Assembly (NCBI RefSeq): GCF_021390495.1
Contig: NZ_JAJEJP010000002.1
Span: 496,001-560,000 of the forward strand
Length of the DNA stretch: 64,000 nt
Direction of reading: 5' to 3'
Source of the DNA: Paraburkholderia sp. ZP32-5
GTDB lineage: Bacteria > Pseudomonadota > Gammaproteobacteria > Burkholderiales > Burkholderiaceae
Shown here: in pieces, positions 18,571-38,618 of the stretch
Layout of the letters: every line of letters starts with the position of its first letter
Numbering within the stretch: the first letter of the stretch is position 1
Notes under the pieces: model-generated
Told to the model about the DNA's origin: nothing
The model's input: the letters and a program-made list of their open reading frames with translations, nothing else
Database searches by the model: none
Position numbers and translations under genes: made by a program

Positions 18571-18592
18571 TCAATCTGCTTAATTTCCTTGT
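18571..18592 (+). promoter_or_regulatory. Shared regulon element, site 4 (AATnnGC-N9-TTGT)
   Basis: The 22-base block fits AAT-N2-GC-N9-TTGT, as do the blocks at 25060, 28966 and 38597. It is preceded directly by CATCGAT, as at 38597, and followed by the same TTGTTTGTG run. It lies 63 bases before the start of the MDR/CoA-ligase operon. A weak -10-like CATAAC follows at 18614. Confidence 0.55.
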
Positions 18593-18654
18593 TTGTGTCT
18601 TAAAAATGTGTCGCATAACATCATTCGAACCGATCTATCAGCCCGGAGGATTGT

Positions 18655-19650
18655 GTGACGTCGATGATGAAAGTGATGGCCCTGCAGCAACACGGCGGGG
18701 TCGAGCAATTGAAGCAGGATGAGTGGCCGATGCCCGTTCCGACGGCCAATCAGGCAGTCGTGGAAGTGAAGGCCTGCGGTCTGAACTATATGGATGTCTT
18801 CGTGATGCACGGCATGCCCGACGTCAAGACGGAGATGCCGCGCATTCCCGGTGGCGATATCGCGGGCATCGTCCGCGAGGTCGGCGCCGAAGTATCGAAG
18901 GACTGGATCGGCAAGCGCGTCGTGCTGTTCCCGCGTTTTCCGCAAGGCGGCGTGCTCGGTGAAAACGGCAATGGCGGCCTGTGCGAATTCATCGCGGCCG
19001 ATCAACGGCAACTGATCGAGATTCCCGAAGGCGTCAGTTTCGACGATGCGGCGGCGCTGCCGATCGCGTACGGCACCGCGCACCGCATGCTGTTCACGCG
19101 CGGCAAGCTGCAGGCCGGCGAGAAGATCATGGTGCTCGGCGCGAGCGGTGGCGTGGGTGTCGCATGTCTGCAGTTCGGCAAGATGGCCGGCGCCGAAGTG
19201 TTCGTGTGCACGAGCACCGAAGAGAAAGCGCGCAAGCTGCGCGAGCTGGGCGCCGATCACACGATCAACTATGCGGAGAACCCGGATTTCTCGAAGGCGG
19301 TGTGGGCGGCGAGCGGCAAGAAGGGCGTCGACGTCGCGGTGAACTTTACCGGCGGCGATACGTGGATTCCGACCCAGCGCTGCATGGCAACCGGCGGACG
19401 CATCCTCACGTGCGGCTCGACGATCGGGCACATCAGCGAAATCGACGTGCGCTATCTGTGGCATCGCGAGGTCGACATCATCGGCTCGCGCGCGTATGTG
19501 CCCGACGACATCAAGGCGTGTCTCGACTTCGTCGCCAGCGGCAAGCTGCAACCGGTGATCGAATCGCAATTCCCGCTGGCGCAGGCAGGTGAAGGTATCC
19601 GCCTGCTCGAAGAACGACGCATTTTTGGAAAGGTCATTGTCAAGCCATGA
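18655..19650 (+). CDS. MDR-superfamily zinc-type alcohol dehydrogenase / quinone oxidoreductase
   Basis: The protein has 331 residues and a GTG start at 18655, supported by GGAGGA at 18645-18650; ATG 18664 is too far from it. The GroES-like domain shows NYMDVFVMHG and PGGDIAGIVREVG. The nucleotide-binding motif is GASGGVGVACLQ, and the C-terminal RIFGKVIVKP is typical of quinone oxidoreductases. The structural and catalytic zinc cysteines of true alcohol dehydrogenases are not evident. It is first in an operon with a CoA ligase (4-base overlap), so it may reduce an enoyl-CoA or quinone-like intermediate. Confidence 0.82.
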   Translation: MTSMMKVMALQQHGGVEQLKQDEWPMPVPTANQAVVEVKACGLNYMDVFVMHGMPDVKTEMPRIPGGDIAGIVREVGAEVSKDWIGKRVVLFPRFPQGGVLGENGNGGLCEFIAADQRQLIEIPEGVSFDDAAALPIAYGTAHRMLFTRGKLQAGEKIMVLGASGGVGVACLQFGKMAGAEVFVCTSTEEKARKLRELGADHTINYAENPDFSKAVWAASGKKGVDVAVNFTGGDTWIPTQRCMATGGRILTCGSTIGHISEIDVRYLWHREVDIIGSRAYVPDDIKACLDFVASGKLQPVIESQFPLAQAGEGIRLLEERRIFGKVIVKP

Positions 19651-21206
19651 GTCAGATCCTGAAGAATCTCGGCAGCATCGGCGACGAGTACCGGCACGAA
19701 GCACGGCCCGTCATCATCGACCTGTGGGACAGCGAGCATCCGCGCGAGGTCGACTATCCGACCTTCCATGCATCGTGCGATGCGGTCGCACGCGGCTTCG
19801 TCGCGCGCGGTTTCGTGAAGGGCGACCGGGTCGGCATCTACTGTTCGAACCGGCTCGAATTTCTCGAAGCGTTCTTTGGCGCGATGCGCGCCGGTGTGAT
19901 TCCGGTGCCGATGGGCATCCTGCTGCCGAAGGACACGATCGAATGGATCATCAGCGACGCTACGCTGAAGCTGGTGTTCTGCGATGCCGATCTGAGCCAC
20001 AAGCTGCCGGATTCGATTCCGCGCATCGTGGTCGACGGTGACGAGTTTGCCGCGTTCAAAGACCCGGGACCGTTCGAAGCGGTGACGGTGTCGGGTGACG
20101 ACATCGCATTCCAGCCCTACACGTCCGGCTCGACCGGGCGCCCGAAGGGCGTGGTTCTGTCGCACCGCGCGCACGTGTGGGTGGCCGAGACGATCTCGCG
20201 CGATCGCGACTTCTGCCGCGACGACCGCATGATCGTTGCCGCGCCGCTCTATCACAAGCACGCGATGAATGCGATCAAGTCGGTGCTGGTCGGCGGCTCG
20301 ACGGTCGTGCTGATGAAGAAGTTCGAGCCGCGCGCGTATCTCGAAGCGGTGAGCCACTATCAAGTGTCGGTGCTGTCCGGCGTGCCGACCATCTTCGCGA
20401 TGATTCTGCAGCAGCGCGATCTGCTCGACGGCAAAGACTTTTCGTTCGTGCGTCTGGCCACACTGGGTGGCGCGCCGGCCTCGGATGAACTGATCGACGC
20501 GGTCGCGAATCGCCTGCCGAATGCGGAGATCATCTGCATCTTCGGCATCACCGAGACGAGTGCCGCGCTGTTCGGTTCGCATCCGCGCAAGGAGCCGCGT
20601 CCGCGTCACTCGGTCGGCTTTCCGATCGCGGGTAACGAGTTCAAGCTGGTGGGCGGCCCCGATGCGGACTTCGGCGTGCTGCACGTGCGCGGTCCCGGCA
20701 TGATGAACGGCTATCACAACAATCCGGCGGAGATGGAGCGCCGCCTGAAGGACGGCTGGTTCAATACCGGTGACGTGCTGCGGCGTGACGCGGATGGCTG
20801 GTACTACTTCATCGGCCGCTCGGACGATATGTTCGTGTGTAGCGGCAACAACATCTATCCGGGCGAAGTCGAACTGATGCTCGAACGTCATCCGGATATC
20901 GAGCAGGCAGTCGTGGTGCCGGTGCCGGACGAGATCAAGCATCAGATTCCGTATGCGTACATCGTCGCGCGCAAAGGTTCGACGCTGTCGGAGAAGGACG
21001 TGAAGGACTATGCGCTGCAGAATGCGCCGCCTTATCAGTACCCGCGCCGCGTGATCTTCGTCGAGCAGTTGTTGCTCAATGGTGTCGGCAAGATCGACCG
21101 CAAGTCGATCAAGGCGCTGGCGCTCGAGTTCAGTCTCGCGGAGCGTAATTCGAGCGCGAGTGCAGGTGCGAGTGCAGGCGCCGAAGTTCGCGCGGAGGGC
21201 GCATGA
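19647..21206 (+). CDS. AMP-forming acyl-CoA ligase
   Basis: The protein has 519 residues and starts in an ATGA overlap with the dehydrogenase. It is an ANL-superfamily adenylating enzyme: phosphate-binding loop YTSGSTGRPKG (about 159-169), aromatic/acid motif IFGITETSAA, hinge region WFNTGDVLRRDADGWYYFIGR and C-terminal Lys in NGVGKIDRK. It activates a carboxylic acid to its CoA thioester. Context suggests an aromatic or ring-derived acid. The C-terminal tail is a short Ala/Ser/Gly repeat (ASAGASAGAE) that looks non-essential. Confidence 0.87.
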   Translation: MSQILKNLGSIGDEYRHEARPVIIDLWDSEHPREVDYPTFHASCDAVARGFVARGFVKGDRVGIYCSNRLEFLEAFFGAMRAGVIPVPMGILLPKDTIEWIISDATLKLVFCDADLSHKLPDSIPRIVVDGDEFAAFKDPGPFEAVTVSGDDIAFQPYTSGSTGRPKGVVLSHRAHVWVAETISRDRDFCRDDRMIVAAPLYHKHAMNAIKSVLVGGSTVVLMKKFEPRAYLEAVSHYQVSVLSGVPTIFAMILQQRDLLDGKDFSFVRLATLGGAPASDELIDAVANRLPNAEIICIFGITETSAALFGSHPRKEPRPRHSVGFPIAGNEFKLVGGPDADFGVLHVRGPGMMNGYHNNPAEMERRLKDGWFNTGDVLRRDADGWYYFIGRSDDMFVCSGNNIYPGEVELMLERHPDIEQAVVVPVPDEIKHQIPYAYIVARKGSTLSEKDVKDYALQNAPPYQYPRRVIFVEQLLLNGVGKIDRKSIKALALEFSLAERNSSASAGASAGAEVRAEGA

Positions 21207-21610
21207 CGCTCGACGAAGCTCAGCAGATCGTTTCGCGCGGACCGTATCTGCGCTGGCTCGGGCTGCAGGTGCTCGAACTGGGTCCCGACACCATCACCGC
21301 GAAGGCGAGCTGGCGCGAGGAGTGGGTCGCCAATCCGGTGCTTGGCCAGACGCATGGCGGGATTCTCGCGGCATTGATCGATTTCGCCGCCGATTTCGCG
21401 CTGCTCGGCAGCATCGGTCACCCGGTGCCGACGATCGACATGCGGGTCGACTATCACCGTCTGACGAAACAGTGCGATCTGATTGCGAAGGGACGCGTTG
21501 TCAAGCTAGGCAAACAGTTTTCAGTGTGCGAGGCTCAGCTTTACGACGATAATCAGCGTCTCGTCGCCAGCGGCCGTGGCGCCTATGTCACCGCGCCGAA
21601 GGGAGACTGA
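21203..21610 (+). CDS. Hotdog-fold thioesterase, PaaI-like
   Basis: The protein has 135 residues in an ATGA overlap with the CoA ligase. The hotdog helix is seen in GQTHGGILAALIDFAADFALL and the strand PVPTIDMRVDYHRL. PaaI-type enzymes hydrolyse aromatic acyl-CoA esters and often rescue CoA from dead-end products. Paired here with a ligase, it could act in the route or as a safety valve. Confidence 0.85.
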   Translation: MTLDEAQQIVSRGPYLRWLGLQVLELGPDTITAKASWREEWVANPVLGQTHGGILAALIDFAADFALLGSIGHPVPTIDMRVDYHRLTKQCDLIAKGRVVKLGKQFSVCEAQLYDDNQRLVASGRGAYVTAPKGD

Positions 21611-21707
21611 TGCACTGATCCGGAGGCCGTTCGTCCCTGTCGTTCCTGTTGTTCATCACGGGACGAACACCTCCTTCTCCTCTGCAATCTTGAACGAAGA
21701 GTGACCC

Positions 21708-22187
21708 ATGTCGAACAGCGGGGGCAGGCGTTTCATGATGGAGTACACGCGCGATTACTACGGCGGCGCGTTGATGGTGCTGATCGGCCTCGGTGCGGTC
21801 GCTCAGGGTATGACGTACGGCGTCGGCACATTGACGCACATGCAAAGCGGCTTCTTTCCCGTTGCGTTGGGATGTGTGCTCGCACTGCTCGGCGTCGCGA
21901 TCGCGGCCAGCGCGAAGCGGGAGGAGACGGCCGATGCCGGCGAAGACGAGCCGCCTGAATGGCGCGGCTGGATCTGCATCACGCTCGGCATTCTCGCGTT
22001 TCTCGCGCTCGGCCGCTTCGGCGGATTGTTGCCGGCCACGTTCGCACTGGTCTTTATTTCGGCTCTCGGCGACCGGGACAACAGCGTCCGCGCGGCGCTG
22101 ATTCTCGCCGTCGCAATTTGCGCGGTCAGCGTCGCGGTGTTCTGGTGGGCGCTGAAGCTTCCTTTCCCGCTACTCAGTTGGGGTTAA
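21708..22187 (+). CDS. tctB: Tripartite tricarboxylate transporter small membrane subunit TctB
   Basis: The protein has 159 residues with four predicted membrane helices: YYGGALMVLIGLGAV, FFPVALGCVLALLGVAI, ICITLGILAFLAL and LILAVAICAVSVAVFWW. That layout, and its place just before a TctA gene (3-base gap), identify TctB. The 97 bases before it hold no other gene. The binding protein TctC of this system is not adjacent but probably encoded at 29126. Confidence 0.85.
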   Translation: MSNSGGRRFMMEYTRDYYGGALMVLIGLGAVAQGMTYGVGTLTHMQSGFFPVALGCVLALLGVAIAASAKREETADAGEDEPPEWRGWICITLGILAFLALGRFGGLLPATFALVFISALGDRDNSVRAALILAVAICAVSVAVFWWALKLPFPLLSWG

Positions 22188-22190
22188 CCG

Positions 22191-23819
22191 ATGGTCGTGC
22201 AATCTCTGACTGACCTGTGGCACGGTTTCGGCGTTGCGTTCGAATGGCACAACTTCATGTGGTCGTTCTTCGGCGTCGTGATCGGCAATCTGATCGGCGT
22301 GCTGCCGGGCATGGGCCCACTGTCGGCCATTTCGCTGCTGCTGCCGCTTACGTATTCGATGCATCCGGTCGCGGCAATCCTGATGCTGGCCGGTGTGTTT
22401 TACGGCTCGCAATATGGCGGCGCGATCGGCGCGATTCTGCTGAACCTGCCTTGCCATCCGCCGCACGCGGTCACCTGTCTCGACGGCTATCCGATGACCC
22501 GCAAGGGTCGCGGAGGTGCCGCGCTCGGCATCACGATGATGTCGTCGTTCTTCGCGGCTTCGATCGGCATCATCGTGATGATCTTCCTGTCGCCGTTGCT
22601 GGTGAAGCTCGCGTTCAGCTTCGGCCCGGCCGAACTGTTCTCGATCATGCTGCTGGGGCTGCTCGCGGGCGGCACGATGTCGACCGGTTCGCCGCTCAAA
22701 GGCGTCGCGATGACCGTGCTCGGGCTGTTGATCGGCGCGGCGGGTATCGACATCAATTCCGGCACGATCCGCTTCACGTTCGGCTTTCCGGAACTGGCCG
22801 ACGGCTTCCAGCTGGTTGCGCTCGCACTGGGGCTATTCGGCGTCGCGGAGTTTCTGCGCAACGTGAACCGTATGCATGTGGTGGGTTCGGGCATGCGGGT
22901 ACGACTGCGCGACATGCGGCCGACGCGCAGCGAGATGAAGCAGTCGTTCTGGCCGATGATTCGCGGCACGGCGGTCGGCACGATCTTCGGCGCGATGCCC
23001 GGCACCGGACCGACGATCACGACCTTCATCGCCTATGCGCTGGAAAAGAAGATCTCGAAGACGCCCGCACGCTTCGGCACCGGTGCGCTCGAAGGCGTCG
23101 CGGCACCGGAGGCCGCGTCTCACTCGAAGACCCAGGTGGACTTCATCCCGACGATGAGCCTCGGCATTCCCGGCGATCCGATCATGGCGCTACTGCTCGG
23201 TGCGTTGCTGATTCACGGCGTGCAGCCGGGACCGCTGCTGATCAGCCATCACGCGGATATCTTCTGGGGACTGGTGGCGAGCTTCTGGATCGGCAACGTG
23301 CTGCTGGTGCTGCTCAACGTGCCGCTGATCCAGATCTGGGTGAAGGTGCTGCAGGTGCCGTACCGCTTCCTGTATCCGTCGGCGCTGCTGTTCATCATGG
23401 TCGGCGTGTACTCGACGAACAACAGCCTGTTCGAAGTCAGCGAGGTACTGTTCTTCGGCCTGTTCGGCGCGCTGCTGCTGGCGCTGCGGTTTCCGGTTGC
23501 GCCGATTCTGCTCGGCTATGTGCTCGGGCCGATGCTGGAGGAAAACTTCCGGCGCGCGCTGCTGCTTTCGCATGGAAAGCTGGCGGTGTTCGCACTGGAG
23601 CCGGTGAGCGCGGCATTTCTCGCGGCGAGTGCGCTGCTGGTTCTGGCGCAGGTCTATTTCGCGGTGCGTGCGCGCCGGCACCGCAAGCGTATGCCGGCGC
23701 AGTCATCGGCCGCGGCGCCCGCTGCTACGTCCAACTCCGCGCCTGGTTCAGCGCCTGATACAGCGCGCCGCGACGAAGCCGGCCCGGACGATACGAATCA
23801 CTTTCTCAATGTGCGTTGA
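22191..23819 (+). CDS. tctA: Tripartite tricarboxylate transporter large permease TctA
   Basis: The protein has 542 residues and about 12 membrane segments. Hallmarks of TctA are the N-terminal GNLIGVLPGMGPLSAISLLLPLT, YGSQYGGAIGAILLNLPCHPP, GTIFGAMPGTGPTITTFIAYALEKKISK and EAASHSKTQVDFIPTMSLGIPGDPIMALLLGALLIHG. The tail after residue about 500 is Ala/Pro-rich and cytoplasmic. It imports a carboxylate using ion gradients together with TctB and an external TctC. Confidence 0.92.
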   Translation: MVVQSLTDLWHGFGVAFEWHNFMWSFFGVVIGNLIGVLPGMGPLSAISLLLPLTYSMHPVAAILMLAGVFYGSQYGGAIGAILLNLPCHPPHAVTCLDGYPMTRKGRGGAALGITMMSSFFAASIGIIVMIFLSPLLVKLAFSFGPAELFSIMLLGLLAGGTMSTGSPLKGVAMTVLGLLIGAAGIDINSGTIRFTFGFPELADGFQLVALALGLFGVAEFLRNVNRMHVVGSGMRVRLRDMRPTRSEMKQSFWPMIRGTAVGTIFGAMPGTGPTITTFIAYALEKKISKTPARFGTGALEGVAAPEAASHSKTQVDFIPTMSLGIPGDPIMALLLGALLIHGVQPGPLLISHHADIFWGLVASFWIGNVLLVLLNVPLIQIWVKVLQVPYRFLYPSALLFIMVGVYSTNNSLFEVSEVLFFGLFGALLLALRFPVAPILLGYVLGPMLEENFRRALLLSHGKLAVFALEPVSAAFLAASALLVLAQVYFAVRARRHRKRMPAQSSAAAPAATSNSAPGSAPDTARRDEAGPDDTNHFLNVR

Positions 23820-23877
23820 CGCCGCTCGCGAGGTCACGTCACTCCACTCCGTTGGTGAAACATAAGAGGCATCGAGG

Positions 23878-24861
23878 ATGAAGAAAATACAGCTGACACT
23901 GGCCGTCGGCGACTACGAAATTACGCGGCCGCTGAAGGACGGCACGGTGCAGGCGGAGGGCATCGATCTGACGGTGCTCACGAGCATGGATTCGATTACG
24001 CGGCACTGGCGGTTTCTGCGCAACAACGAATTCGATGCCGCGGAGATCTCGGCATCGTCGTATATCGTGTCGAAAGACCGCGATCTGCCGTTCTGCGCGA
24101 TTCCCGTTTTTCCGCATCGCCGTTTCCGGCATGGCTTTATCTATATCAACAAGAATAAGGGTATTGAGAAGCCGACCGATCTGATCGGCAAGAAGATCGG
24201 CGTGAAGGCCTATCAGGTGACCGCGGTGCTGTGGCTGCGCGGCATGCTGGAACACGAATATGGCGTGCCGCACCGCTCGATCGACTGGTACTCGGATCTC
24301 GACGAGGATCTCGATTTCACGCCGCCGGAAGGCCTCAGGCTGACGCGCGTGCGCGATGACCAGTCGGTCGAGAAGATGCTGGCCGAAGGTGAGCTGGACG
24401 CACTGCTGCATCCGGACATCATCGAGCCGATCGTGAACAAGGACCCGCGCGTCGGCCGTCTGTTCGACAATCCGAAGGCCGCCGAGATCGAGTACTACGA
24501 GCGCACCGGCATCTTCCCGATCATGCACTTCGTCGGTCTGAAGCAGGAGGTGGTGGAGCGCCATCCGTGGATTCCGCGCAGTCTCGCGAAAGCCTTCGAA
24601 CAGGCGAAGGCCATCGGCATGCGCCGCATGCGCAATCCGCGCGTCGCGCCGCTTGCGTGGTATCAGGAAGCACTGGAAGAACAGGAGCGTCTGCTCGGCC
24701 CGGATCCGTGGCAGTACGGACTCACGCCGGAGAACGTGAAGAACATCAATACGCTGATGGGCTATTCGCACGAGCAGGGTCTGATTCGACGCATGATTCC
24801 GATGAATGAACTATTCGTCGATCTGTCGGAAGGGACGAAGCGCGGTACGTTCCGCACCTGA
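23878..24861 (+). CDS. 4,5-dihydroxyphthalate decarboxylase-like protein (PBP-II fold, cytosolic)
   Basis: The protein has 327 residues and starts MKKIQLTLAVGDYEITRPL with no signal peptide, so a periplasmic role for TctA is unlikely. The segments DAAEISASSYIVSK, IPVFPHRRFRHGFIYINKNKG and IGVKAYQVTAVLWLRGMLEHEYGV match the family named after phthalate 4,5-dihydroxy decarboxylase (Pht5). That family has a periplasmic-binding-protein fold. It lies 58 bases after tctA and ends the operon. Decarboxylation of an aromatic acid in the route is plausible; family members are functionally varied. Confidence 0.75.
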   Translation: MKKIQLTLAVGDYEITRPLKDGTVQAEGIDLTVLTSMDSITRHWRFLRNNEFDAAEISASSYIVSKDRDLPFCAIPVFPHRRFRHGFIYINKNKGIEKPTDLIGKKIGVKAYQVTAVLWLRGMLEHEYGVPHRSIDWYSDLDEDLDFTPPEGLRLTRVRDDQSVEKMLAEGELDALLHPDIIEPIVNKDPRVGRLFDNPKAAEIEYYERTGIFPIMHFVGLKQEVVERHPWIPRSLAKAFEQAKAIGMRRMRNPRVAPLAWYQEALEEQERLLGPDPWQYGLTPENVKNINTLMGYSHEQGLIRRMIPMNELFVDLSEGTKRGTFRT

Positions 24862-24925: not shown

Positions 24926-25059
24926 GTGAAATCCGTTTTCCTGCCGGCACGTGACTGACTGATTGCCGGCTTTATTCCGTGTCATTGCTTATTCGATGTT
25001 GCGTATCGGCGCGACAGGGTTTGTCATTGCCTTTTGCGTTTATCTATCGAATAAAGAGA

Positions 25060-25081
25060 ACAATAAGCCGATATAAGTTGT
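25060..25081 (+). promoter_or_regulatory. Shared regulon element, site 1
   Basis: It matches AAT-N2-GC-N9-TTGT, with near-inverted ends ACAAT and GTTGT. ATCGA lies 14 bases upstream, exactly as at site 2 (28966). It is 26 bases ahead of the -10 box TATAAT at 25108. Confidence 0.55.
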
Positions 25082-25107
25082 GTTTATTTTCCGCGAATGA
25101 GCGCACC

Positions 25108-25113
25108 TATAAT
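25108..25113 (+). promoter_or_regulatory. Likely -10 box TATAAT of the porin operon
   Basis: ACCTATAATCG here and at 29011 is the same 11-base string at the same distance from the regulon element. No good TTGACA box exists 17 bases upstream, as expected for an activator-dependent promoter. Confidence 0.5.
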
Positions 25114-25240: not shown

Positions 25241-26434
25241 ATGAAAAAGCGCGTTGTTGCCGTCGCCGCATTGGGTTGTGCCGTCATTGCGCCAGTGCAT
25301 GCCCAGAGTTCCGTCACGCTGTATGGCGTGATCGATGAAGGGCTTCAATTCAATACGAACAACAAGAACGTGGTCGGCGGTCGCAATGTCGGCGGCCGTC
25401 TGTGGAATCTCGACTCGCTCGCGGGTCCGTCGGGCAGCCGTTGGGGGATCAAGGGCTCCGAGGATCTCGGTGGCGGACTGAAAGCGGTATTCACACTCGA
25501 GTCGGGCGTGAACATCAATAACGGCAATCTGGGCCAGGGCGGCACGTTTTTCGGCCGCCAGGCGTACGTAGGTTTGAGCAGCAGTCGCTTCGGTAGCGTG
25601 CTGCTCGGGCGGCAGTACGACAGCGTCAACGATTACATCGGCTTCATGACGTTCGGCCTCGCGTCGTATGGCAGCGGTATTTCGCACCCGGGCGACGTCG
25701 ACAACACGACGCACACTTCGCGCGCGAACAACACGATCAAATACACCTCGCCGGACTTCAGCGGGTTCACGTTCGGCGGCACGGTGTCGCTCGGCGGCGT
25801 GGCGGGCTCGATATCGCAGAGCAGCGGCTTTACCGGCGGGGCCGGCTATCGGAACGGTCCGACCACCCTCGGTGTCGTGTATCAGCTGTTCAAGAATCCG
25901 TCGAATGCCGGCGCGATCCTGAACGGCAATTCGAACGCCGTCGCTCCCGCGACGACCACCGCGTTCGCGTCGCTGAATTCAGGCTATCTGGCGGGCACCC
26001 GTCCGGCGACGTCATGGCAGGTGATCGGCGCGGCTGGTTCGTACAACTTCGGCAGCGTGACCGTCGCCGGTGCGTGGACGAATGTTCGCTACGGCAATAT
26101 CGGACGCTACAACGGTGCCACTGCATCGTTCAACGACGTCGAAGTCAACGGTATGTACCAGCTCAATCCGCAGGTGTTTTTCTCGCTTGCGTACAACTAC
26201 CTGAAGGGCAATGCGGTGAGCGGCGACATCGGCGATCAGACCTATCACCAGGTGTCCGCGATGGGCGACTACGTGCTGTCCAAACGCACCGACGTGTATG
26301 TGACCGCAACGTTCCAGGCCGCGAGCGGTACGAACTCGCTCGGCGCGCCGGCGGTCGCGAATATCTCGCAGGTCGGCGACTCCTCCAATAACCGCCAGGC
26401 GCTGTTTCGCGTCGGCTTGCGGCACCGGTTCTAA
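25241..26434 (+). CDS. Gram-negative outer-membrane porin (Burkholderia type), copy 1
   Basis: The protein has 397 residues, with GGAG before ATG 25241. The signal peptide ends at VHAQ-SSVTLYG. The 16-strand general porin family is shown by SRWGIKGSEDLGGGLKAVFTLESG, FFGRQAYVGLSS and the terminal RVGLRHRF with the C-terminal Phe needed for outer-membrane assembly. It provides diffusion of the regulon substrate into the periplasm. It is 12 bases from a second, very similar porin gene, an evident tandem duplication. Confidence 0.93.
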   Translation: MKKRVVAVAALGCAVIAPVHAQSSVTLYGVIDEGLQFNTNNKNVVGGRNVGGRLWNLDSLAGPSGSRWGIKGSEDLGGGLKAVFTLESGVNINNGNLGQGGTFFGRQAYVGLSSSRFGSVLLGRQYDSVNDYIGFMTFGLASYGSGISHPGDVDNTTHTSRANNTIKYTSPDFSGFTFGGTVSLGGVAGSISQSSGFTGGAGYRNGPTTLGVVYQLFKNPSNAGAILNGNSNAVAPATTTAFASLNSGYLAGTRPATSWQVIGAAGSYNFGSVTVAGAWTNVRYGNIGRYNGATASFNDVEVNGMYQLNPQVFFSLAYNYLKGNAVSGDIGDQTYHQVSAMGDYVLSKRTDVYVTATFQAASGTNSLGAPAVANISQVGDSSNNRQALFRVGLRHRF

Positions 26435-26446
26435 CCAGGCCCGATC

Positions 26447-27748: not shown

Positions 27749-28699
27749 TCAAGCCGCCTTGCTCTGCTCGCCCTGAGTCGCATTCCAGCGATAGTTGTCC
27801 GGAATGGTCTCGATCAGCGCATCGACGAGCCGTTGCGTATTCGGCGAGAACGAGCGCAACTGCCGCGTGATCAGACACACCTCGCGCGTAATCACCGGGT
27901 CCGTCAGCTCACGGAACGTGAACGACTTCAGTGGTCCGGTGTGCACCGCGAGTTCGGGCAGCACCGAGATTCTGCCGCCGAGCGTCAGCATCGCGTACAG
28001 CGACGTCGTGCTCGACGCACGATCCTGCAGGCTCGCATGATGGTGATGGTCCAGCGCGGGATGCGAGTCGAGGAACGCGCCGATACCGGTATCGTTCGCG
28101 AGCGAGATCGTCTTGAAGTCCGTAATGTCGGCCCAGCGCAATGGGCGCTCGATCGCGCCGAGCGGATGATCGCCCGGAAACAGCACGCCGAAGCGGTCGC
28201 CGACGATCGGCATATACGCCAGATCGGGGAAATTGTTCAGACGGCTGGCGATGCCGAAATCCACCTCACCCGACAGCACCGCGCGCTCGACCTTGTCGGC
28301 GCTGCCGTCGCTGACCGAAATCGTGATGTTCGGATAAGCGCGTTGAAACGACGCGAGCGCGGGCGTCAACACGTGTTCGATCATCGACGGCACCGCCGCG
28401 ATACGCGCATGGCCGCGATGACTCAGCGAAATCGCCTGCAGATCGCCCACCGCGGTATCGAAATCCTGCAGCACCCGGTCCGCCACCGACTTGAAACGCG
28501 CGGCGTCCGCGGTCATCACGACCCGGCGCGTGGTTCGGTCGAACAGCTTCAGTCCGACTTCTTCCTCGAACTGCTGGATCGTCGCCGTCAGCGACGACTG
28601 GGTCTGATACAGCCGCGCGGCAGCGAGCGTGAACGAGCCGGTCTCGGCCACCGCAACGAAACAGCGAAGATGGCGCAGCGATATTTTCCGGGTTGCCAT
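27749..28699 (-). CDS. LysR family regulator, likely controller of the region 2 regulon
   Basis: The protein has 316 residues. Start 28699 is preferred over the longer frame because AGGAA precedes it. The winged HTH is LRHLRCFVAVAETGSFTLAAARLYQTQSSLTATIQQFEEE, followed by a type-2 periplasmic-binding effector domain. It is divergent from the TctC/molybdenum hydroxylase operon and convergent with the porins. The shared element at 28966 lies in its divergent promoter region. Regulating those promoters is inferred from position only. Confidence 0.88.
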   Translation of the reverse strand: MATRKISLRHLRCFVAVAETGSFTLAAARLYQTQSSLTATIQQFEEEVGLKLFDRTTRRVVMTADAARFKSVADRVLQDFDTAVGDLQAISLSHRGHARIAAVPSMIEHVLTPALASFQRAYPNITISVSDGSADKVERAVLSGEVDFGIASRLNNFPDLAYMPIVGDRFGVLFPGDHPLGAIERPLRWADITDFKTISLANDTGIGAFLDSHPALDHHHHASLQDRASSTTSLYAMLTLGGRISVLPELAVHTGPLKSFTFRELTDPVITREVCLITRQLRSFSPNTQRLVDALIETIPDNYRWNATQGEQSKAA

Positions 28700-28987: not shown

Positions 28988-29013
28988 GTTTTTTTCTCAC
29001 TCGTAGCCGAACC

Positions 29014-30181: not shown

Positions 30182-30306
30182 TCACGACACACGACACACC
30201 ACGCACGACGCACCACCTGTCACCAGCCAGCGGCACGGCGCCGCGGGGTGACGCTCGGCCGTCGCGCCAACCATCGAATTCGATCGATATTTCTGGAGAC
30301 CGCTAG

Positions 30307-30837
30307 ATGACATCGGGGATGACCATCACGGTAAACGGCAAGCAGCACGAGGTTCAGGCCGACGCCGAAACACCGCTGGTTTACGTGTTGCGCAACGAGT
30401 TGGGTTTGCACGGCACCAAGTTCGGTTGCGGCGTCGCGCAGTGCGGCGTCTGTTCGGTGCTGCTCGACGGCCAGGAGATCCGCTCCTGCATCATGCCGGT
30501 CGCGATGGTGGTCGGGCATGAGATCACGACGCTCGAAGGGCTAGGTCCGTTGTGGCAGCAGAAAAAGAAAACCGCGCCTGCTGCAACGGCCAAGGAAAGC
30601 ACTAACGCCGATCTGCATCCGGTGCAGCGCGCGTGGATCGATCATCAGGTGCCGCAGTGCGGCTATTGCCAGAGCGGCATGATGATTCAGGCGGTGAGTC
30701 TGCTCGAGACGAACCCGCAGCCGAGCCGCGCGGATATCGTCGCGTCGATGCAGGGGCACATCTGCCGGTGCGGCACGCATATGCGGATCATCGCGGCCAT
30801 CGAACAGGCCGCCACGCAGATGGGCAAGGAAGGATAA
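30307..30837 (+). CDS. Molybdenum hydroxylase [2Fe-2S] small subunit, IorA-like
   Basis: The protein has 176 residues; GGAG precedes ATG 30307. The N-terminal plant-type cluster ligands lie in CGVAQCGVCSVLLDG plus the later SC. The C-terminal alpha-helical cluster uses CGYCQSGM and CRCG. This two-cluster layout is that of xanthine-dehydrogenase-family small subunits such as isoquinoline 1-oxidoreductase alpha and nicotinate dehydrogenase. An unusual Lys/Ala-rich insert (KKKTAPAATAKESTNADL) separates the domains. It passes electrons from the Mo site to the cytochrome encoded downstream. Confidence 0.9.
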   Translation: MTSGMTITVNGKQHEVQADAETPLVYVLRNELGLHGTKFGCGVAQCGVCSVLLDGQEIRSCIMPVAMVVGHEITTLEGLGPLWQQKKKTAPAATAKESTNADLHPVQRAWIDHQVPQCGYCQSGMMIQAVSLLETNPQPSRADIVASMQGHICRCGTHMRIIAAIEQAATQMGKEG

Positions 30838-30840
30838 GCG

Positions 30841-33108
30841 ATGACCATCAACGAGCTTCAGTCCTCGACGGACCATGTCGCATCGCTGAAACGGCGCGGC
30901 TTTCTGAAGGCCGGCGGCGCGCTGGTGGTGGCGTTCTGCCTGCCGTTGTCCGCCTCTTGCGCCGAATCGGGCGAGAGCTTTCCGAAAGTGCCCCCCGAAC
31001 AACTCGATTCGTGGCTGGCGATCGGCCAGGACGGTTCGGTGACCGCGTTCACCGGTCGCATCGATATGGGCACCGGCGTGCAGACCGTGTTCGCGCAGGC
31101 GGTGGCCGAGGAACTCGATGTGAACGTCAACGCGGTCACGGTGATTCTCGGCGATACCGTGCGCACGCCTGAACAGGGCAAGTCGACGGCCAGTAACAAC
31201 ATCGCGCGCAATCTGCCGCCGATGCGCCAGGCGGCCGCGGAAGCGCGCATGACGCTGCTCGGCCTCGCCGCGGAGAAATTCAACGTGCCCGCGGCGCAGC
31301 TCACTGTGAGCGACGGCGTCGTCAGCATGCCGGGCAATACTCGCAAGCTCAGCTATGGCGAGCTGATCGGCGGCGGGCGTTTCAACGTCACGCTCGGTGT
31401 CAAGGGTACGGGCAACCAGACGAAACTGATCGGCCGCGCGCCGTTGAAGAATCCGAAGCATTTCAAGGTGCTCGGCACGTCGGTGCCGCGCGTGGATATT
31501 CCGGCCAAGGTACGCGGCGAGTGGAAGTACGTGCACGACGTGGTCGTCGACGGGATGCTGCATGGCACGGTCGTGCTGCCGCCCGCGCGCGGCATGAAGC
31601 TGGTTTCCGTCGATGGCTTTCCGCAGCCGGTGCCCGGTGTCGTCAAGGTGGTCACGCGCGGCAATTTCGTCGGCATCGTCGCGCAGACCGAGCAGGCCGC
31701 GGTGCGCGCGCGCAATTCGCTGCGCGTCACGTGGACGCCCGTCACGCACGAGAACTTCGACGACGTGTACGCGGCGGTCGACCGTACGCGCATCATCCAG
31801 GAACACGTCGAAGGCAACGTCGGCGACGTCAAAACCGCGTTCGCGAACGCGGCCAATATCGTCGAGGCCACTTACCGGCTGCCGGTCAATTCGCACGGCA
31901 TGATGGGGCCGTCGTGCGCGATCGCCGATTTCCGCGACGGCGCGCTGACGATGTGGTCCGGCACGCAGTGGCCGGACGGCACGCGCCGTGACGTCGCCAA
32001 GATGCTGGGTCTGCCGGTCGACAAGGTCCGTGTGATCTGGGTGCAGGGATCGGGTTCGTATGGCCGCCTCGGTGTCGACGACGCGGCCGGCGATGCGGCA
32101 CTGCTGTCGCAGGCGGTCGGCGCGCCGGTGCGCGTGCAGTGGCAGCGCGCCGACGAAAACCAGTGGTCGCCGTTCTGTCCGGCCGCGGTGATCCAGGTGA
32201 AGGCCGGTCTCGATGCGCACGGCAATATCATCGCGTGGCAATTCGAAAACCGCACGCCAGGGCATTCGACCGCCGAGCGCGGCAATATCCTCGCGTGGCG
32301 CGCGCTCGGAACCAACCCGGGACACGACCGCCTGAGCGGCGGCGCGGACAATCCGAGCTACAACATTCCGAACCTGCACGTCGTCACGCATTACACCGAC
32401 GAGGTCGTGCGCGCGATCTACATGCGTTCGGTGGCGGGCATCCAGAACGCGTTCGCGATCGAATCCCATATGGACGATCTGGCCGCGAAGGCGGGCATCG
32501 ATCCCGTCGAATTCCGGATCAGGCATACGGCCAATGCGCGTTCGCGCCACGTGATCGAAACGGTGGCGCGCAAGGCGGGCTGGAAAGCATTGCAAAAGCC
32601 CAAGGTGGACGGCGATCTGATCGAGAGTCGCGGTATCGCGGCGTTGTGCGCCGGCGACGGCAAGCTCGAAAACCACGGCGCGTGGGGCAACCTCGCGACG
32701 ATCGTCGATATCGTGCTGAACCGGCGCACCGGCACGATCCGCGTGAAGCGCGTGTTCGTCGCCTTCGACGCGGGCCGGATCGCCAATCCGGACGGCCTGC
32801 GCGCGCAGGCGGAGGGCGGCACGCTAATGGGCATCAGCCGCGCGCTGAAGGAGCAGGTGCTGTTTCGCGGCGGCGCGGTCGCGTCGGCGGACTGGCTCAC
32901 CTATCCGGTGCTGCAGTTCAACGACGTGCCGGAGTCGCTCGAAGTCGAGCTGATCAATACCGACAATCCGCCGCTCGGTGCGGGCGAAGTGCCGAACGTC
33001 ACGCCGGCTGCGGCGATCGGCAATGCGGTATTCGCGGCAACCGGCGTGCGCATACACGAATTGCCGCTGACGCCGGAGAAGGTCAAGGCGGCGCTCGCCA
33101 CGACGTGA
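30841..33108 (+). CDS. Molybdopterin-binding hydroxylase large subunit, IorB-like, Tat signal
   Basis: The protein has 755 residues, 3 bases after the small subunit. A twin-arginine signal (KRRGFLKAGGALVVAF) indicates export of the assembled complex. Next come the Mo-binding domains with GRIDMGTGVQTVFAQAVAEEL, QWPDGTRRDVAKMLGLP, VQGSGSYGRLG and the base glutamate in PPLGAGEVPNVTP (about 715). The family hydroxylates aromatic carbon next to ring nitrogen or oxidises aldehydes using water. Without an FAD subunit, electrons leave through the c-type cytochrome that follows. Confidence 0.9.
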   Translation: MTINELQSSTDHVASLKRRGFLKAGGALVVAFCLPLSASCAESGESFPKVPPEQLDSWLAIGQDGSVTAFTGRIDMGTGVQTVFAQAVAEELDVNVNAVTVILGDTVRTPEQGKSTASNNIARNLPPMRQAAAEARMTLLGLAAEKFNVPAAQLTVSDGVVSMPGNTRKLSYGELIGGGRFNVTLGVKGTGNQTKLIGRAPLKNPKHFKVLGTSVPRVDIPAKVRGEWKYVHDVVVDGMLHGTVVLPPARGMKLVSVDGFPQPVPGVVKVVTRGNFVGIVAQTEQAAVRARNSLRVTWTPVTHENFDDVYAAVDRTRIIQEHVEGNVGDVKTAFANAANIVEATYRLPVNSHGMMGPSCAIADFRDGALTMWSGTQWPDGTRRDVAKMLGLPVDKVRVIWVQGSGSYGRLGVDDAAGDAALLSQAVGAPVRVQWQRADENQWSPFCPAAVIQVKAGLDAHGNIIAWQFENRTPGHSTAERGNILAWRALGTNPGHDRLSGGADNPSYNIPNLHVVTHYTDEVVRAIYMRSVAGIQNAFAIESHMDDLAAKAGIDPVEFRIRHTANARSRHVIETVARKAGWKALQKPKVDGDLIESRGIAALCAGDGKLENHGAWGNLATIVDIVLNRRTGTIRVKRVFVAFDAGRIANPDGLRAQAEGGTLMGISRALKEQVLFRGGAVASADWLTYPVLQFNDVPESLEVELINTDNPPLGAGEVPNVTPAAAIGNAVFAATGVRIHELPLTPEKVKAALATT

Positions 33109-33274
33109 TCGTTGCCCGCTGCTGTATGCGCGGGCACATCCGTTGGGCACATCCGCTATTGGCCGCTTCTTTATTCAAGTTATCTGCTTCACGTTACTCG
33201 CCGGGCCGCCGCGGCGTGATCGCGCGCGAGCCCCTTACGTCAGCACGAGTCAGCATGAAAATCATAAGGCACGC

Positions 33275-34597
33275 ATGAAACCGCTGAATCTGATGCACGC
33301 CATCGCTGTGGGGGCGGCGATGGCCTTTGCGATGATCTCCCCCGCGTCGGCCGCGCAGCCCGAAGCGATGTCGCGCGGCGCTTATCTCGCACGCGCCGCC
33401 GATTGTGTGGCCTGCCACACGGTTGCCGACGGCAAGCCGTTCGCGGGCGGGCTGAAGATGGGCACGCCGTTCGGCAACATCTACAGCACCAATATCACGC
33501 CCGACAAGCAGACCGGCATCGGCGGCTACACGCTGGCCGATTTCGATCGCGCGGTGCGCCACGGCGTCGCGCAGGACGGCCATCAGTTGTATCCGGCGAT
33601 GCCTTATCCGTCGTACGCGAAGATCAGCGACAGCGATCTCGCGTCGCTGTATGGCTACTTCATGCACGAGGTTGCGCCGGTGCATCAAGCGAACCGGCCG
33701 GGCGAGATCAAATGGCCGCTGAACATCCGTTGGCCGCTCGCCATCTGGAACCGGATGTTCGTCGATATGCATCCGTATGCATCGGACGCCGCGCACGATG
33801 CCGCATGGAATCGCGGCGCGTATCTGGTGCAGAGTCTCGGACACTGCGGCGCGTGCCATACGCCGCGCGGTGTCGGCTTCCAGGAGCAGAGCACCGGCGG
33901 CGGCAGCGAATTTCTCGGCGGCTCGACGCTCGACGGCTGGACGGCCAGCGATCTGCGCGGCGACCAGGCGGCGGGGCTCGGTCGCTGGAGCCATGCGGAC
34001 ATCGTCGCGTTCCTGAAGGACGGGGGCAACGCGCACGCGTCTGTGTTTGGTTCGATGATCGACGTGTACAACAACAGCTCACAGTTCCTGACCGACGACG
34101 ACCTGAGCGCGATTGCCACTTATCTGAAGTCGCTGCCGCCGTCGCATCCGGACGCGCCGGGCTGGACCTACGACGATACGACCGCGCAGGCGCTGAAGCA
34201 CGGCGATTTTTCGAGCGCGCAGGGTCTCAGCGGCAGGGCGGGCGCGCAAGTGTTTCGCACGCAATGCGCGAGTTGTCACGGCGTCGACGGCAAGGGGCTC
34301 GGCGATCGGCTGCCGTCGCTTGCCGGCAATCCGAACGTGCTGGCGGAGGATCCTTCATCGGTCGTCAATCTGATTCTGAACGGCTCGCAGCGCGTGGTTC
34401 GCCACGGCATGCCGGACTCGTACCGGATGGCGCCGTTCAGACTGCAGTTGAGCGATCAGGAAATCGCGGATGTCGCCACGTGGATTCGTCATGCGTGGGG
34501 CAATCGCGCGGGCGCGGTGACTGCCGCCGATGTCGCGAAGCTGCGCGCGTCGACCGATATGAGCAGCAATCAGGTGATCATTCTGAAGATGAGATAA
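33275..34597 (+). CDS. Periplasmic triheme cytochrome c, electron acceptor of the Mo hydroxylase
   Basis: The protein has 440 residues starting at ATG 33275, preceded by AAGG. The signal peptide ends near ASAAQ. Three haem-binding motifs are visible: CVACH, CGACH and CASCH, with the spacing of alcohol/aldehyde dehydrogenase cytochrome subunits. Met ligands are likely in KMGTPFG and in GMPDSYRMAPF. It carries electrons from the Mo hydroxylase to the respiratory chain. In nicotinate dehydrogenase an equivalent cytochrome is fused to the Mo subunit; here it is separate. Confidence 0.9.
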   Translation: MKPLNLMHAIAVGAAMAFAMISPASAAQPEAMSRGAYLARAADCVACHTVADGKPFAGGLKMGTPFGNIYSTNITPDKQTGIGGYTLADFDRAVRHGVAQDGHQLYPAMPYPSYAKISDSDLASLYGYFMHEVAPVHQANRPGEIKWPLNIRWPLAIWNRMFVDMHPYASDAAHDAAWNRGAYLVQSLGHCGACHTPRGVGFQEQSTGGGSEFLGGSTLDGWTASDLRGDQAAGLGRWSHADIVAFLKDGGNAHASVFGSMIDVYNNSSQFLTDDDLSAIATYLKSLPPSHPDAPGWTYDDTTAQALKHGDFSSAQGLSGRAGAQVFRTQCASCHGVDGKGLGDRLPSLAGNPNVLAEDPSSVVNLILNGSQRVVRHGMPDSYRMAPFRLQLSDQEIADVATWIRHAWGNRAGAVTAADVAKLRASTDMSSNQVIILKMR

Positions 34598-34731: not shown

Positions 34732-34748
34732 CAATTGAACTCTGCGAA

Positions 34749-35954
34749 TCAGTCCGACTTCAGTTGAAGATTGCTCGGCTGGCGCTTCTCGATCGAGTAC
34801 TTCAGCAGCGCGGCCGAACGGAAAATCCCGTGAGCGAATTTGCCGTACGGCAGCGTCAGGAACAGCCCCATCACGATGCCGAGGTGAACGGCGAGCAGCA
34901 GGCTCATCGCCGTGCTATCGCGCATCACGAGCAACAGCAGACCAGTCGCCGCGGTGAGCAGCAGCAACGCGATAAAGCCGCGATCCATCGGACGCTGGTT
35001 CGGGTCACCCTGACGCGCGTCGCGCCGCAGATTGAGCCACAGCAAACCGGCCGGCCCGATCAGCAGCCCGAGGCCGCCGAGCGTGCCCAGCAGCACCGGC
35101 ACACTGAAGAACGGATACGGTGCGGGGTAGTCCAGCAGATAGTCGTACAGCGTGCCCACACAGGTCGCCGCGAAGCACAGCATGAAGCCGTAGAACGTCA
35201 GATGATGGAAGCGCCGGCGCGCAAGCGAGAACGAGTCGTCCTCGTTGTTGCAGCCCTTGCCGTGACCACCGCCGAGATAGCGCAGGCGCAGCGCGTCGTG
35301 CGCGGCTTCGGCCACCGCCGCGCCGCTTGCCGAGCCCGGCGTGATGCCGCGCCAGAAGCGCGTGACGCCGATGCCCAGCGCGAGGATCACATACAGAAAC
35401 ACCGCGCCGAACATCTGCGCGAGCAGGTTGTGCGGAAACACCGCATAGAAGTTGCCCGCGAGCGGTTCCCTCAACCAGCCTCCGCCGATGCCCGCCGCCA
35501 ACGCGAGGAACAACGCGAGGCCACCGGCGAGCGCCAACGCGACCGTCAGCCCGTTGTGTCGATACAGCTCGCCGAACGGTCGCGGCCACGCGAAATCGGC
35601 GTAGGTGTCGACGCGAACCTTCGCCATCGCTTGCGGCACGTTGACGCCGAATTCGTGCGGCGGCGCGTACTGGCACGCATGCAGGCAGGCCCCGCAGTTG
35701 TGGCACAGATTCGCCAGATAGTGGACGTCGGCCTTGCTGAATGCGAGGCGCCGGTTCATCGCCGGAAACACCGCGCAGAAGCCCTCGCAATAGCGGCACG
35801 CATTGCAGATCTGCATCACGCGCGCGACTTCGCTTTCGTTGTCCGTGCACTCGCCTTGCAGAATCTGCGTCTGCGAGCGGAAGGTGATCGGCTGCTCGCG
35901 TACGCCGGCGGCCGTCATTGCGGCGTCGTGGATCAGGTCGTCAAGCGGCTGCAT
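34749..35954 (-). CDS. tcuB: TcuB-like iron-sulfur membrane protein (tricarballylate/citrate utilisation)
   Basis: The protein has 401 residues from ATG 35954; longer frames upstream lie within tcuA. Two [4Fe-4S] motifs are visible: C50, C53, C56, C60 and C84, C87, C90, C94. About six membrane helices with several His residues follow (for example [29 protein letters not shown]). In Salmonella, TcuB passes electrons from the reduced FAD of TcuA to the membrane pool. The gene overlaps tcuA by 14 bases. Confidence 0.88.
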
Positions 35955-37398
35955 GGTGGGCTTCCTTGTTGTTCTGGGTATCGGGGGTGTCGGGTGTGTT
36001 CTGTGCGCGCTGACCCGGCCGCGCGGCGCGTGCCGCCTGAGCGCCGGCGATGCGTCCGAACGCGGTACCGATCGACATGCCCACACCGGCCGTATAGCCC
36101 TTGCCGAGCACGTTGCCGGCCATCATCTCGCCGGCCACGAACAGGTTGTCGCTCGGCTGGTCGTTGAAGCGCACCGCCGCGGTATCGTCGACTTTCAGGC
36201 CGAGGTAGGTGAAGGTGATGCCGGGACGCACCGCATACGCGTAGAACGGCGCGGTATCGAGCGGGCGGGCCCAGTGTGTTTTCGCGGGCTCCAACGCCTC
36301 CGTGTGGCAGTCGTCGAGCACGGTATGGTCGAACTGGCCGACGCGGCAGGCGGCGTTGTAGTCGCCGACGGTTTGCATGAACTGCGCTTCGTCGACGCCG
36401 ATCTTGCGCGCGAGTTCGGGCAGCGTATCGGCCTCGATGCCGGGAAACACCGGCGGCATGAAGCGGCCGATCGCCTTCGCGTCGATGATCGAATAGGCGA
36501 TCTGACCGGGCTGCATCGCGGTGAGGCGGCCCCAGATCGCGTAGCGCTTCGGCCAGAAGTCCTCGCCTTCGTCGTAGAAGCGCTTCGCTTCCCGATTGAC
36601 GACAATGCCGAGCGACACGCAGTCGATGCGCGTGCAGATGCCGCCATCGTAGAGCGGCGCGCGCGCATCGATCGCCACGCAATGCCCTTGCGACGGATCG
36701 CCGATGATGTCCGCGCCGTGCTCCATCATGAACTTCAGCAACGTGCCGTTGTTAAAGCGCGTGCCGCGGATCAGGATTTTCTCGCCCGGCCATTCGCCGC
36801 GTTCGTTTTGCCCCCACGCTTCGCGCAGCCATTCGCGATTCGATTCGAAACCGCCGCAGGCCAGCACGCAGCTGCGTGCTTCGATCCGCTCGCCATTGCA
36901 ATAAGCAGCGATGAAGCGGCCACCGTCGCCGAGTTCCAGCGAATCGACCGGGCTCTCATAGCGGATCTGCACGCCGAGCGCTTCGGCGCTGCGGTAATAC
37001 GCGTTCACGAGTGCCTTGCCGCCGCCCATGAAAAACGCGTTGGTGCGCGACAGATGCAGCGTGCCCGACAGCGGCGGCTGGAAATTGACGCCGTGCTTAC
37101 GCATCCAGTCGCGGCACGACGACGAATGACGAATCACGAGCCGCGCCAGATGCTCGTTCGTGATGCCGCCCGTCACCTTCAGCAGGTCTTGCCAGAATTC
37201 CTCTTCGGGGTACGCGTCGACCAGCACGTCTTGCGGCGCGTCGTGCATGCAGCGCAGGTTACGGGTGTGTTGCGAGTTGCCGCCGCGCCATTCGCGCGGC
37301 GCCGCTTCGAGCAGCAGCACGCTTGCGCCTGCCTCGCGGGCGGTCAGGGCCGCGCAGAGGGCGGCATTGCCGCCGCCGATTACGAGAACGTCGATCAT
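35941..37398 (-). CDS. tcuA: TcuA-like FAD-dependent tricarballylate dehydrogenase
   Basis: The protein has 485 residues. The Rossmann motif [28 protein letters not shown] starts at residue 4, supporting start 37398, although no good ribosome site is seen. Fumarate-reductase/succinate-dehydrogenase-type flavoprotein features include [30 protein letters not shown] and the C-terminal [10 protein letters not shown] with [22 protein letters not shown]. TcuA oxidises tricarballylate to cis-aconitate. No TcuC transporter is present; TctABC could supply the substrate. Confidence 0.87.
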
Positions 37399-37479
37399 GG
37401 GGGGAAGTGTGGTTATAGCCAGCTTCCCACTGTAGAGACGACGCCGCGCCGCGGCCATCCGGCGCGGCGCAAGGGGTCT

Positions 37480-38406
37480 TCACGATTCGTGAAGGGTCGC
37501 TCCGGGCCAGCGGCCGTCCCTGACCTGCGCGGCGGCGACCTGCGCGAGCAGCACGCGGGTCGCGAGCGCGGCGGGCGATAGTTCGTCGTCGGAGAGGCTC
37601 ACCAGCAGATTCGGCCGATGCAGGAAGCCGTCGCGGATCAGCCGCACGTCGAACGCTTCGCTGCCGAGGCGCGCAGTGGCGGCGCCCGGCTGAATGGTCG
37701 CGCCGAAGCCGTCTTGCACGAGGTCCATCAGCACGGTCAGGCCATCCACTTCGGCGACGATTTCCGGCGCCGCGTGGGTGCGCGCGAACGCGGCATCGAG
37801 CAGCGCGCGCAGGCCGTGGCTATTGCTCGGCAGCACCAGCGGCACGCCGGCGAGATCGCGCAGACGGATCTCCTTGTCCGGCGGCATGCCCGCGAAGCCG
37901 GGCTTGGCAATCAGAAACAGCCGCTCGTCGAGCAGCGGCAGCACGCTCCAGCGGCGCGCGGTGTCGGCGCGAAACATCACGGCCAGATCGAGCTGGCGCG
38001 CGTTCAGCATGTTGCCGAGATGGCCCGATAGCGTCTCCACCAGATGAACCCGCACGCCCGGGTAGCGCTCGCGCATCGCGTGCAGCAGCGGCAGCGCCAG
38101 CACCGACGCGGTGGTCGGCGCGAGTCCGACGCTGACGTGGCCGCTCAGCCGGGCTTCGTGCGCGCTGTGGATCGCATTGTCTGCATGACGCACCGCGAGC
38201 TGCGCCTGGCGCAGGAACGCGATGCCGGCATCGGTCGGAATCACGCCGGTGGCGGTGCGCGTCAGCAGCCGGGTCGCCAGTTCGCTTTCGAGGCGGCTGA
38301 TCTGCTGGCTGAGCGCCGACGTCACCATGCCGAGGTCCGCCGCCGCGCGGCCGAGTCCGCCGTGCTCGACGACCTTGATGAAATAACGCAGCTGCCGCAA
38401 TTCCAT
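37480..38406 (-). CDS. tcuR: LysR family regulator, Nac/Cbl-type, TcuR-like
   Basis: The protein has 308 residues, starting MELRQLRYFIKVVEHGGLGRAAADLGMVTSALSQQISRLESELATRLLTRT, the typical start of the Nac/Cbl/TcuR branch. It is upstream of tcuA on the same strand, with an 81-base gap, as in known tcu loci. It is also divergent from the TPP-decarboxylase operon, whose promoter carries the shared element at 38597, so it is a second candidate to control that operon. Confidence 0.87.
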   Translation of the reverse strand: MELRQLRYFIKVVEHGGLGRAAADLGMVTSALSQQISRLESELATRLLTRTATGVIPTDAGIAFLRQAQLAVRHADNAIHSAHEARLSGHVSVGLAPTTASVLALPLLHAMRERYPGVRVHLVETLSGHLGNMLNARQLDLAVMFRADTARRWSVLPLLDERLFLIAKPGFAGMPPDKEIRLRDLAGVPLVLPSNSHGLRALLDAAFARTHAAPEIVAEVDGLTVLMDLVQDGFGATIQPGAATARLGSEAFDVRLIRDGFLHRPNLLVSLSDDELSPAALATRVLLAQVAAAQVRDGRWPGATLHES

Positions 38407-38596
38407 GTATCGGGTTCCAGAGGTTGCTTCGGGATCGAGCCGGAAGTGTCGCATACGGGGCGCGCGTGGGGGCGTCCGTGGGCACGCGTGGCGCCTATCA
38501 GCGCCCATCCGCGCCCGGCGGTGAGGGTTTCCCAGCAGGTTTGCCAGCCGTTATCGCCGCCCGGACGGCGCTTCGTGAACTTATCGCGCGCATCGA

Positions 38597-38618
38597 TTAA
38601 TGGGCAAAAACTACTTGT
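38597..38618 (+). promoter_or_regulatory. Shared regulon element, site 3
   Basis: Only two bases differ from site 2 over the 20-base core (AATGGGCAAAAA then C or T TA then TTGT). CATCGAT abuts it upstream as at site 4. A weak -10-like TAGCAT follows at 38642. The remaining divergent region 38407-38707 holds no gene. Confidence 0.6.

Follow-up and report, generated by a model that had tools for sequence, protein, structure and literature searches.

A 64-kb window of the Paraburkholderia sp. ZP32-5 genome (positions 496001-560000 of contig C2; 9.09 Mb in 4 contigs) was analysed as a whole and revealed four operons with a common 43-bp element in their promoter regions. The four sites are real and not due to chance, and the element very probably serves as operator for a single LysR-type regulator, LysR1 (27749-28699, minus strand), whose regulon would comprise these operons. 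An original prediction, made by eye, had described a shared 22-bp element. While the sharing was borne out, the 22-mer covers no more than the downstream portion of a LysR-type operator of 43 bp, which also includes a T-N11-A box. The four operators are listed below with their E-values against model R1, which was built from the eight operon sites of Paraburkholderia heleia and Paraburkholderia xenovorans only.

18554..18596, plus strand: operator of operon 1 (site 1), with T-N11-A box and TTGTTTGT half (E=4.7e-4)
25043..25085, plus strand: operator of operon 2 (site 2) (E=6.5e-4)
28949..28991, plus strand: operator of operon 3 (site 3), the strongest match (E=6.2e-8)
38580..38622, plus strand: operator of operon 4 (site 4) (E=4.2e-5)

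Sequence features of the operator

A pattern search located the core AAT-N2-GC-N9-TTGT at 18573, 25062, 28968, and 38599, and 10 of the 22 positions were identical across all four sites, exactly as had been predicted. In total, the window held five matches to this core versus 0.41 expected, with a maximum of 2 in 100 shuffles; the fifth match (43228) lies inside the HyuA gene, has no ATCGA ahead, and was dropped. Genome-wide, the nine-base pattern resulted in 36 matches compared with 18 for a reversed control, so that the pattern alone proves little and was abandoned as a genome-wide probe.

Upstream, ATCG begins 14 bases ahead of each of the four sites (18557, 25046, 28952, and 38583). The longer ATCGA directly adjoins sites 1 and 4 but is separated by 9 bases from sites 2 and 3 downstream of it, which corresponds to distances of 5 and 14 when counted start to start; the pairing of site 1 with 2 and of site 3 with 4 in the original prediction was thus incorrect. 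In sites 1 and 4, the nearer ATCGA forms the second arm of an ATCG-N7-CGAT dyad, and neither operon 1 nor operon 4 has retained it in P. heleia or P. xenovorans. Since it is an unconserved dyad arm, the two spacings one helical turn apart are an artefact. Likewise, the exact inverted ends ACAAT and ATTGT belong to site 3 (28966) and not to site 2.

Columns 5 (T) and 17 (A) of the 43-bp operator form the T-N11-A box. Invariant columns in the eight P. heleia and P. xenovorans sites include 4-6 (ATC), A17, 20-22 (AAT), T33, and 36-39 (TTGT). We further compiled 42 sites, to which the three Paraburkholderia contributed 17, keeping the weak sites of loci L044 and L050 and leaving out L051, where no site was found. 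T5 and A17 were present in 42/42 of these, columns that the site-picking model itself favours.

Rarity and conservation of the operator

Scanning of the own genome with R1, in which 150 of 274 first-look candidates were scored, revealed six matches at E<=10. The first four were sites 3, 4, 1, and 2, and the remaining two, at C2:268654 (E=0.005) and upstream of lysR1 (E=0.086), both have ties to the cluster. Trained on the sites of other species, the model thus ranked the four predicted sites first, as one regulon over four operons would have it, and among the candidates scored it did not match the many unrelated promoters that could have spoken against the prediction. The sites are rare by the full model, with its six matches, and not by the nine-base pattern with its 36. 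The genome contains at least 150 matches to the LysR helix-turn-helix domain (150 of 405 candidates scored) but only six to R1, so that LysR promoters in general are not matched by this model.

For leave-one-operon-out analysis, each matrix was built without the operon under test, from the six sites that P. heleia and P. xenovorans have at the remaining three operons, which makes the test independent of orthology. The 64 kb offered about 127,900 positions, among which the left-out site of the own genome ranked 4th for operon 1, 4th for operon 2, 1st for operon 3, and 5th for operon 4. Each matrix placed the same five operators on top, with a clear gap before the sixth.

In P. heleia and P. xenovorans, the sites precede the same operons as in the own genome, including counterparts of the operon 1 operator, so that the predicted conservation was found. 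In an ungapped comparison, all three species shared the base at 26-35 of the 43 operator positions, compared with 4-15 of 90 positions upstream and 1-8 of 40 in columns 111-150.

Among 144 genomes of the genus, LysR1 (E<=1e-90) was detected in three, where 4, 5, and 6 sites were counted at E<=0.1. At this threshold, with 44 candidates scored per genome, R1 matched 6 of the 144, namely these three and G026, G072, and G077. Thus, only three of the 141 genomes without a LysR1 hit matched R1, two of them where decayed remnants of this cluster survive: in G026 (L084) the operator is kept before a decayed alcohol dehydrogenase (ADH) remnant, and in G072 (L082) the site 4 operator is kept before the thiamine pyrophosphate (TPP) decarboxylase. 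The match in G077 (E=0.079) had no cluster gene in its 3-kb locus.

LysR1 as the candidate regulator

The original prediction had proposed the LysR proteins at 27749 and 37480 for binding studies; the former is the likely regulator and the latter, LysR2, an unlikely one. LysR1 is favoured by the occurrence of a similar operator beside most of its homologs in freshwater Burkholderiaceae metagenome-assembled genomes (MAGs; 60-62% identity), Bordetella (48%), and a sister genus, g3 (48-52%), and by its conserved helix region. This region, around QSxLTATIQQ, is nearly unchanged throughout the LysR1 group; LysR2, with 20% identity to LysR1, has a different one. With at most five candidates scored per genome, LysR1 was found at E<=1e-90 in the own genome only among 399 sampled genomes of the order, and at E<=1e-75 in the own genome, P. 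heleia (G045), and ten g3 genomes among 398 sampled genomes of the family.

A similar site (scores of 19.7-26.4) comes after the LysR1 homolog in all four freshwater MAG loci, with operon 1 and operon 4 genes behind it. The gene order is ADH, CoA ligase, 4HBT, TPP decarboxylase, and aldehyde dehydrogenase, with the operator-like site between the LysR1 homolog and ADH; HyuAB was also present in L034 and L036, while the other two loci end before that point. Bordetella hinzii and B. pseudohinzii revealed two sites each, by the LysR1 homolog and before its TctC neighbour. In g3, 13 of 15 LysR1 homologs scored at least 4.8 within 250 bp upstream versus 2 of 171 control windows, one of these two being in fact a site that precedes a HyuA-like gene. 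Shuffling of the 15 g3 gaps produced no score at least as good in 100 shuffles for 13 of them, one for L052, and 21 for L051. As a side observation, L056 (g3) has, on the opposite side of its LysR homolog, a further operator-like site (2445-2487) that stands before a HyuA-like gene.

That LysR2, which diverges from operon 4, is the regulator, or that both LysR proteins share the operator, is very improbable. LysR2 adjoins site 4, has LysR domains, and is full-length in P. xenovorans. In P. heleia, however, only its residues 1-82 and 259-302 were matched (L058, 19381-19698) and the middle is missing, despite the presence of all four operators there. No LysR2 match (E<=1e-10, >35% identity) was found in the four MAG loci, two of which are cut by contig ends, and these loci carry a similar operator. 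An intact LysR2 hence does not accompany the operator wherever it is kept. Because LysR2 adjoins a gene for a TcuA-type dehydrogenase, has a recognition helix unlike that of the LysR1 group, and has lost its middle in P. heleia, it is unlikely to control this regulon and probably regulates the tcuA-type gene instead; we presume it to be TcuR-like. In the window scan, no operator-like site with a score of at least 8 was directed towards the tcuA side, and the TcuA-type gene is not counted in the regulon.

Promoter geometry and proposed mechanism

Behind each operator, a -10 box was predicted at one of two offsets, as follows for the five sites in the window, including one that points at lysR1.

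18616..18621, plus strand: predicted -10 of operon 1, TAACAT (columns 63-68)
25108..25113, plus strand: predicted -10 of operon 2, TATAAT (columns 66-71)
28838..28843, minus strand: predicted -10 of lysR1, TATCTT (columns 63-68)
29014..29019, plus strand: predicted -10 of operon 3, TATAAT (columns 66-71)
38642..38647, plus strand: predicted -10 of operon 4, TAGCAT (columns 63-68)

In the compiled sites, TAnnnT occupied columns 63-68 in 33 of 42 and columns 66-71 in six more, with at most one at any other offset from 50 to 85. These columns are not part of any model, and sites from sister species are not independent. The six sites with the more distant box are those of operons 2 and 3 in the three Paraburkholderia; in the own genome (25043-25113 and 28949-29019) they show a perfect TATAAT three bases further downstream than in the other promoters. 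If transcription is assumed to start about 7 bases after the predicted -10, the T-N11-A box is centred at about -64 (columns 63-68) or about -67 (columns 66-71).

Most LysR-type transcriptional regulators (LTTRs) are tetramers, and LysR1, probably in this form, would sit at the ATCG (T-N11-A) box. The YAAT...TTGT stretch, which reaches to about -35, may serve as the activation half; together with its inducer, LysR1 would engage this downstream half up to -35 and recruit polymerase to the -10. In this way it would activate operons 1-4 and probably also lysR1 and a distant gene, so that uptake and breakdown genes are probably switched on together. Such a mechanism is of the ordinary kind. LTTRs usually repress their own genes. 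The lysR1 site has activator spacing, however, which suggests self-activation by LysR1, by analogy with ThnR and BexR.

Two further promoters

Both R1 matches beyond the four operators point to promoters that probably carry the same switch, judged from their sequences.

28863..28905, minus strand: fifth operator-like site, pointing at lysR1 (position-specific scoring matrix (PSSM) score 36.1; R1 E=0.086)
C2:268654-268696: distant operator-like site (R1 E=0.005), about 246 kb from site 1
C2:268829-270163 (L078, 8830-10164): secreted-looking 445-aa protein containing a GFSTGG stretch

The lysR1-facing site, located before the LysR gene, had been missed in the original prediction; the next other match in the window scored 8.6. 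Its counterpart in the same place scores 38.1 in P. xenovorans but 12.1, a weak match, in P. heleia, and the -10-like box at columns 63-68 reads TATCTT in the own genome, TATCCT in P. heleia, and TATCGT in P. xenovorans.

The distant site lies about 130 bp ahead of the start of the gene for the 445-aa protein, which had no match in Pfam, NCBIfam, PDB sequences, or plasmids. At E<=1e-60, this protein was detected in 3 of 144 genus genomes, namely the own genome, P. heleia, and G072, and the position of its gene relative to the cluster differs in each. The P. heleia ortholog (91%) comes after the MCP gene of the cluster, with a weaker site of its own (PSSM 28.5, R1 E=0.496), while the gene in G072 lies directly behind HyuB-RidA. 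P. xenovorans revealed neither a match to the distant protein at E<=1e-60 nor such an R1 site.

Scope of the proposed regulon and remaining alternatives

On a wider scale, and only tentatively, it is possible that one rigid layout (T-N11-A, YAAT, TTTGT, and -10 at fixed columns) is read by LysR1 and related regulators across several Burkholderiales genera. It would be used at catabolic operons and before TctC genes, and in Paraburkholderia at lysR1 itself as well, in activator geometry. Full induction would then be of the positive-feedback type, possibly all-or-none, and would reach the unlinked gene for the secreted-looking protein.

Several observations weigh against assigning the operator to LysR1. 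The full set is present in only three members of the genus, and orthologous sites share ancestry; G072, which keeps site 4 without a LysR1 hit at E<=1e-90, in a decayed cluster with some parts broken or missing, speaks slightly in the same direction. The R1 scans covered the 150 scored candidates of 274 in the own genome and 44 per genome in the genus. MAG sites have ATT in place of ATC in columns 4-6, while T-N11-A is kept, and other positions in these AT-rich loci score 13.0-15.9. In g3, the homologs of L044 (-3.5) and L051 (-17.9) have no convincing site, the compiled sites of L043, L044, and L050 have no -10, and the 171 control windows are mostly coding, so that their base composition is unlike that of the gaps. 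Finally, the lysR1-facing operator is weak in P. heleia (12.1) and in the own genome (E=0.086), as is the P. heleia site before the distant ortholog (E=0.496), where ATA replaces ATC.

Alternatively, a single ancestral promoter might have been duplicated, leaving sites that have no function today. Sites 2 and 3 are alike beyond the operator, and the two porins belong to one family. However, identity between species falls outside the operator and -10 at operons 2 and 3, with a milder drop at operon 4 (12/17 and 15/35 in nearby downstream stretches), and a similar operator with the same -10 spacing stands before other genes in other genera, which leaves this explanation very improbable. Chance resemblance in AT-rich intergenic DNA of a GC-rich genome has a negligible probability: promoters here are AT-richer than the window and the nine-base pattern alone has its 36 matches, but the full model at E<=10 found no unrelated promoter among the 150 candidates scored in the own genome, and the genus scan, the g3 upstream versus control scores, the -10 offsets, and the leave-one-out ranks all oppose it.

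Comparison with known systems

Regulons of this LysR type are already known. Searches aimed at the present cluster found no paper on it in the open-licence literature. ThnR of tetralin degradation is a self-activating LysR-type activator of several catabolic promoters with T-N11-A centred at -64 (PMC4834489). The LysR1 regulon would resemble it in the promoters of several catabolic operons, in a T-N11-A box followed by a loosely similar second region, and in close divergent promoters (PMC4834489). It differs in its genes, in the co-activator ThnY, which ThnR needs (PMC4834489) and of which no counterpart is known here, and in a candidate member about 246 kb away. The standard LTTR operator consists of a recognition binding site (RBS) with T-N11-A near -65 and an activation binding site (ABS) (PMC8407307). 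Compared with this outline, the box, the predicted spacing and reach to -35, and a regulator divergent from a target operon agree, whereas lysR1 seems to have a separate, activator-spaced operator in place of a shared, overlapping, repressing site (PMC8407307). BexR of Pseudomonas aeruginosa is a LysR-type protein that activates its own gene and underlies bistable expression (PMC2796861); LysR1 would be like it in positive self-control, which here is deduced from geometry only.

A guess by eye has become a regulon that can be put to the test, as its proposed regulator is named and its operators are placed to the base. Two promoters were added to the original four, and a secreted-looking protein without a family match was tied to the pathway. 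The recognition pattern of this LysR subgroup, which is often found beside TctC genes, could help to assign targets to uncharacterised members.

Gene content of the cluster

Annotation was based on Pfam unless stated otherwise, and the operon limits, in particular those of operons 1 and 4, were inferred from gene order.

18667..24861, plus strand: operon 1, quinone oxidoreductase-like ADH, AMP-dependent CoA ligase, 4HBT thioesterase, TctB, TctA, and an NMT1/phosphonate-binding-like protein
25241..27664, plus strand: operon 2, two Gram-negative porins
27749..28699, minus strand: LysR1, the proposed regulator (PF00126, 4.9e-21; PF03466, 7.3e-32)
29120..34597, plus strand: operon 3, TctC, 2Fe-2S subunit, molybdenum (Mo) hydroxylase large subunit, and cytochrome c
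35941..37458, minus strand: TcuA-type tricarballylate dehydrogenase (NF006130, 778.9 bits, cut-off 369)
37480..38406, minus strand: LysR2 (Pfam LysR domains)
38708..45536, plus strand: operon 4, split TPP decarboxylase (two subunits), aldehyde dehydrogenase, HyuA, HyuB, and a presumably RidA-like last frame

Matches of the last operon 1 protein to the NMT1 and phosphonate-binding families were below the curated Pfam cut-offs. The gene content suggests, from the annotation, that an organic acid or its ester is taken up (porins, TctABC) and degraded in a CoA-dependent manner. An N-heterocycle acid, with a route such as isonicotinate to tricarballylate, was considered as a candidate substrate, but the term citrazinate was not found in the literature search. 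A TcuB-like partner is presumed beside the TcuA-type gene, and the long frame in question had no Pfam match.

In regard to gene organization, the sites at 28863-28905 and 28949-28991 lie between the divergently oriented LysR1 and TctC genes, and the tcuA-type gene and LysR2 (35941-38406) are embedded between operons 3 and 4, with LysR2 divergent from operon 4. The gene order of operon 1 is unchanged in L058 and L060. That of the cluster is shared by P. heleia, which has one porin gene, while P. xenovorans has two.

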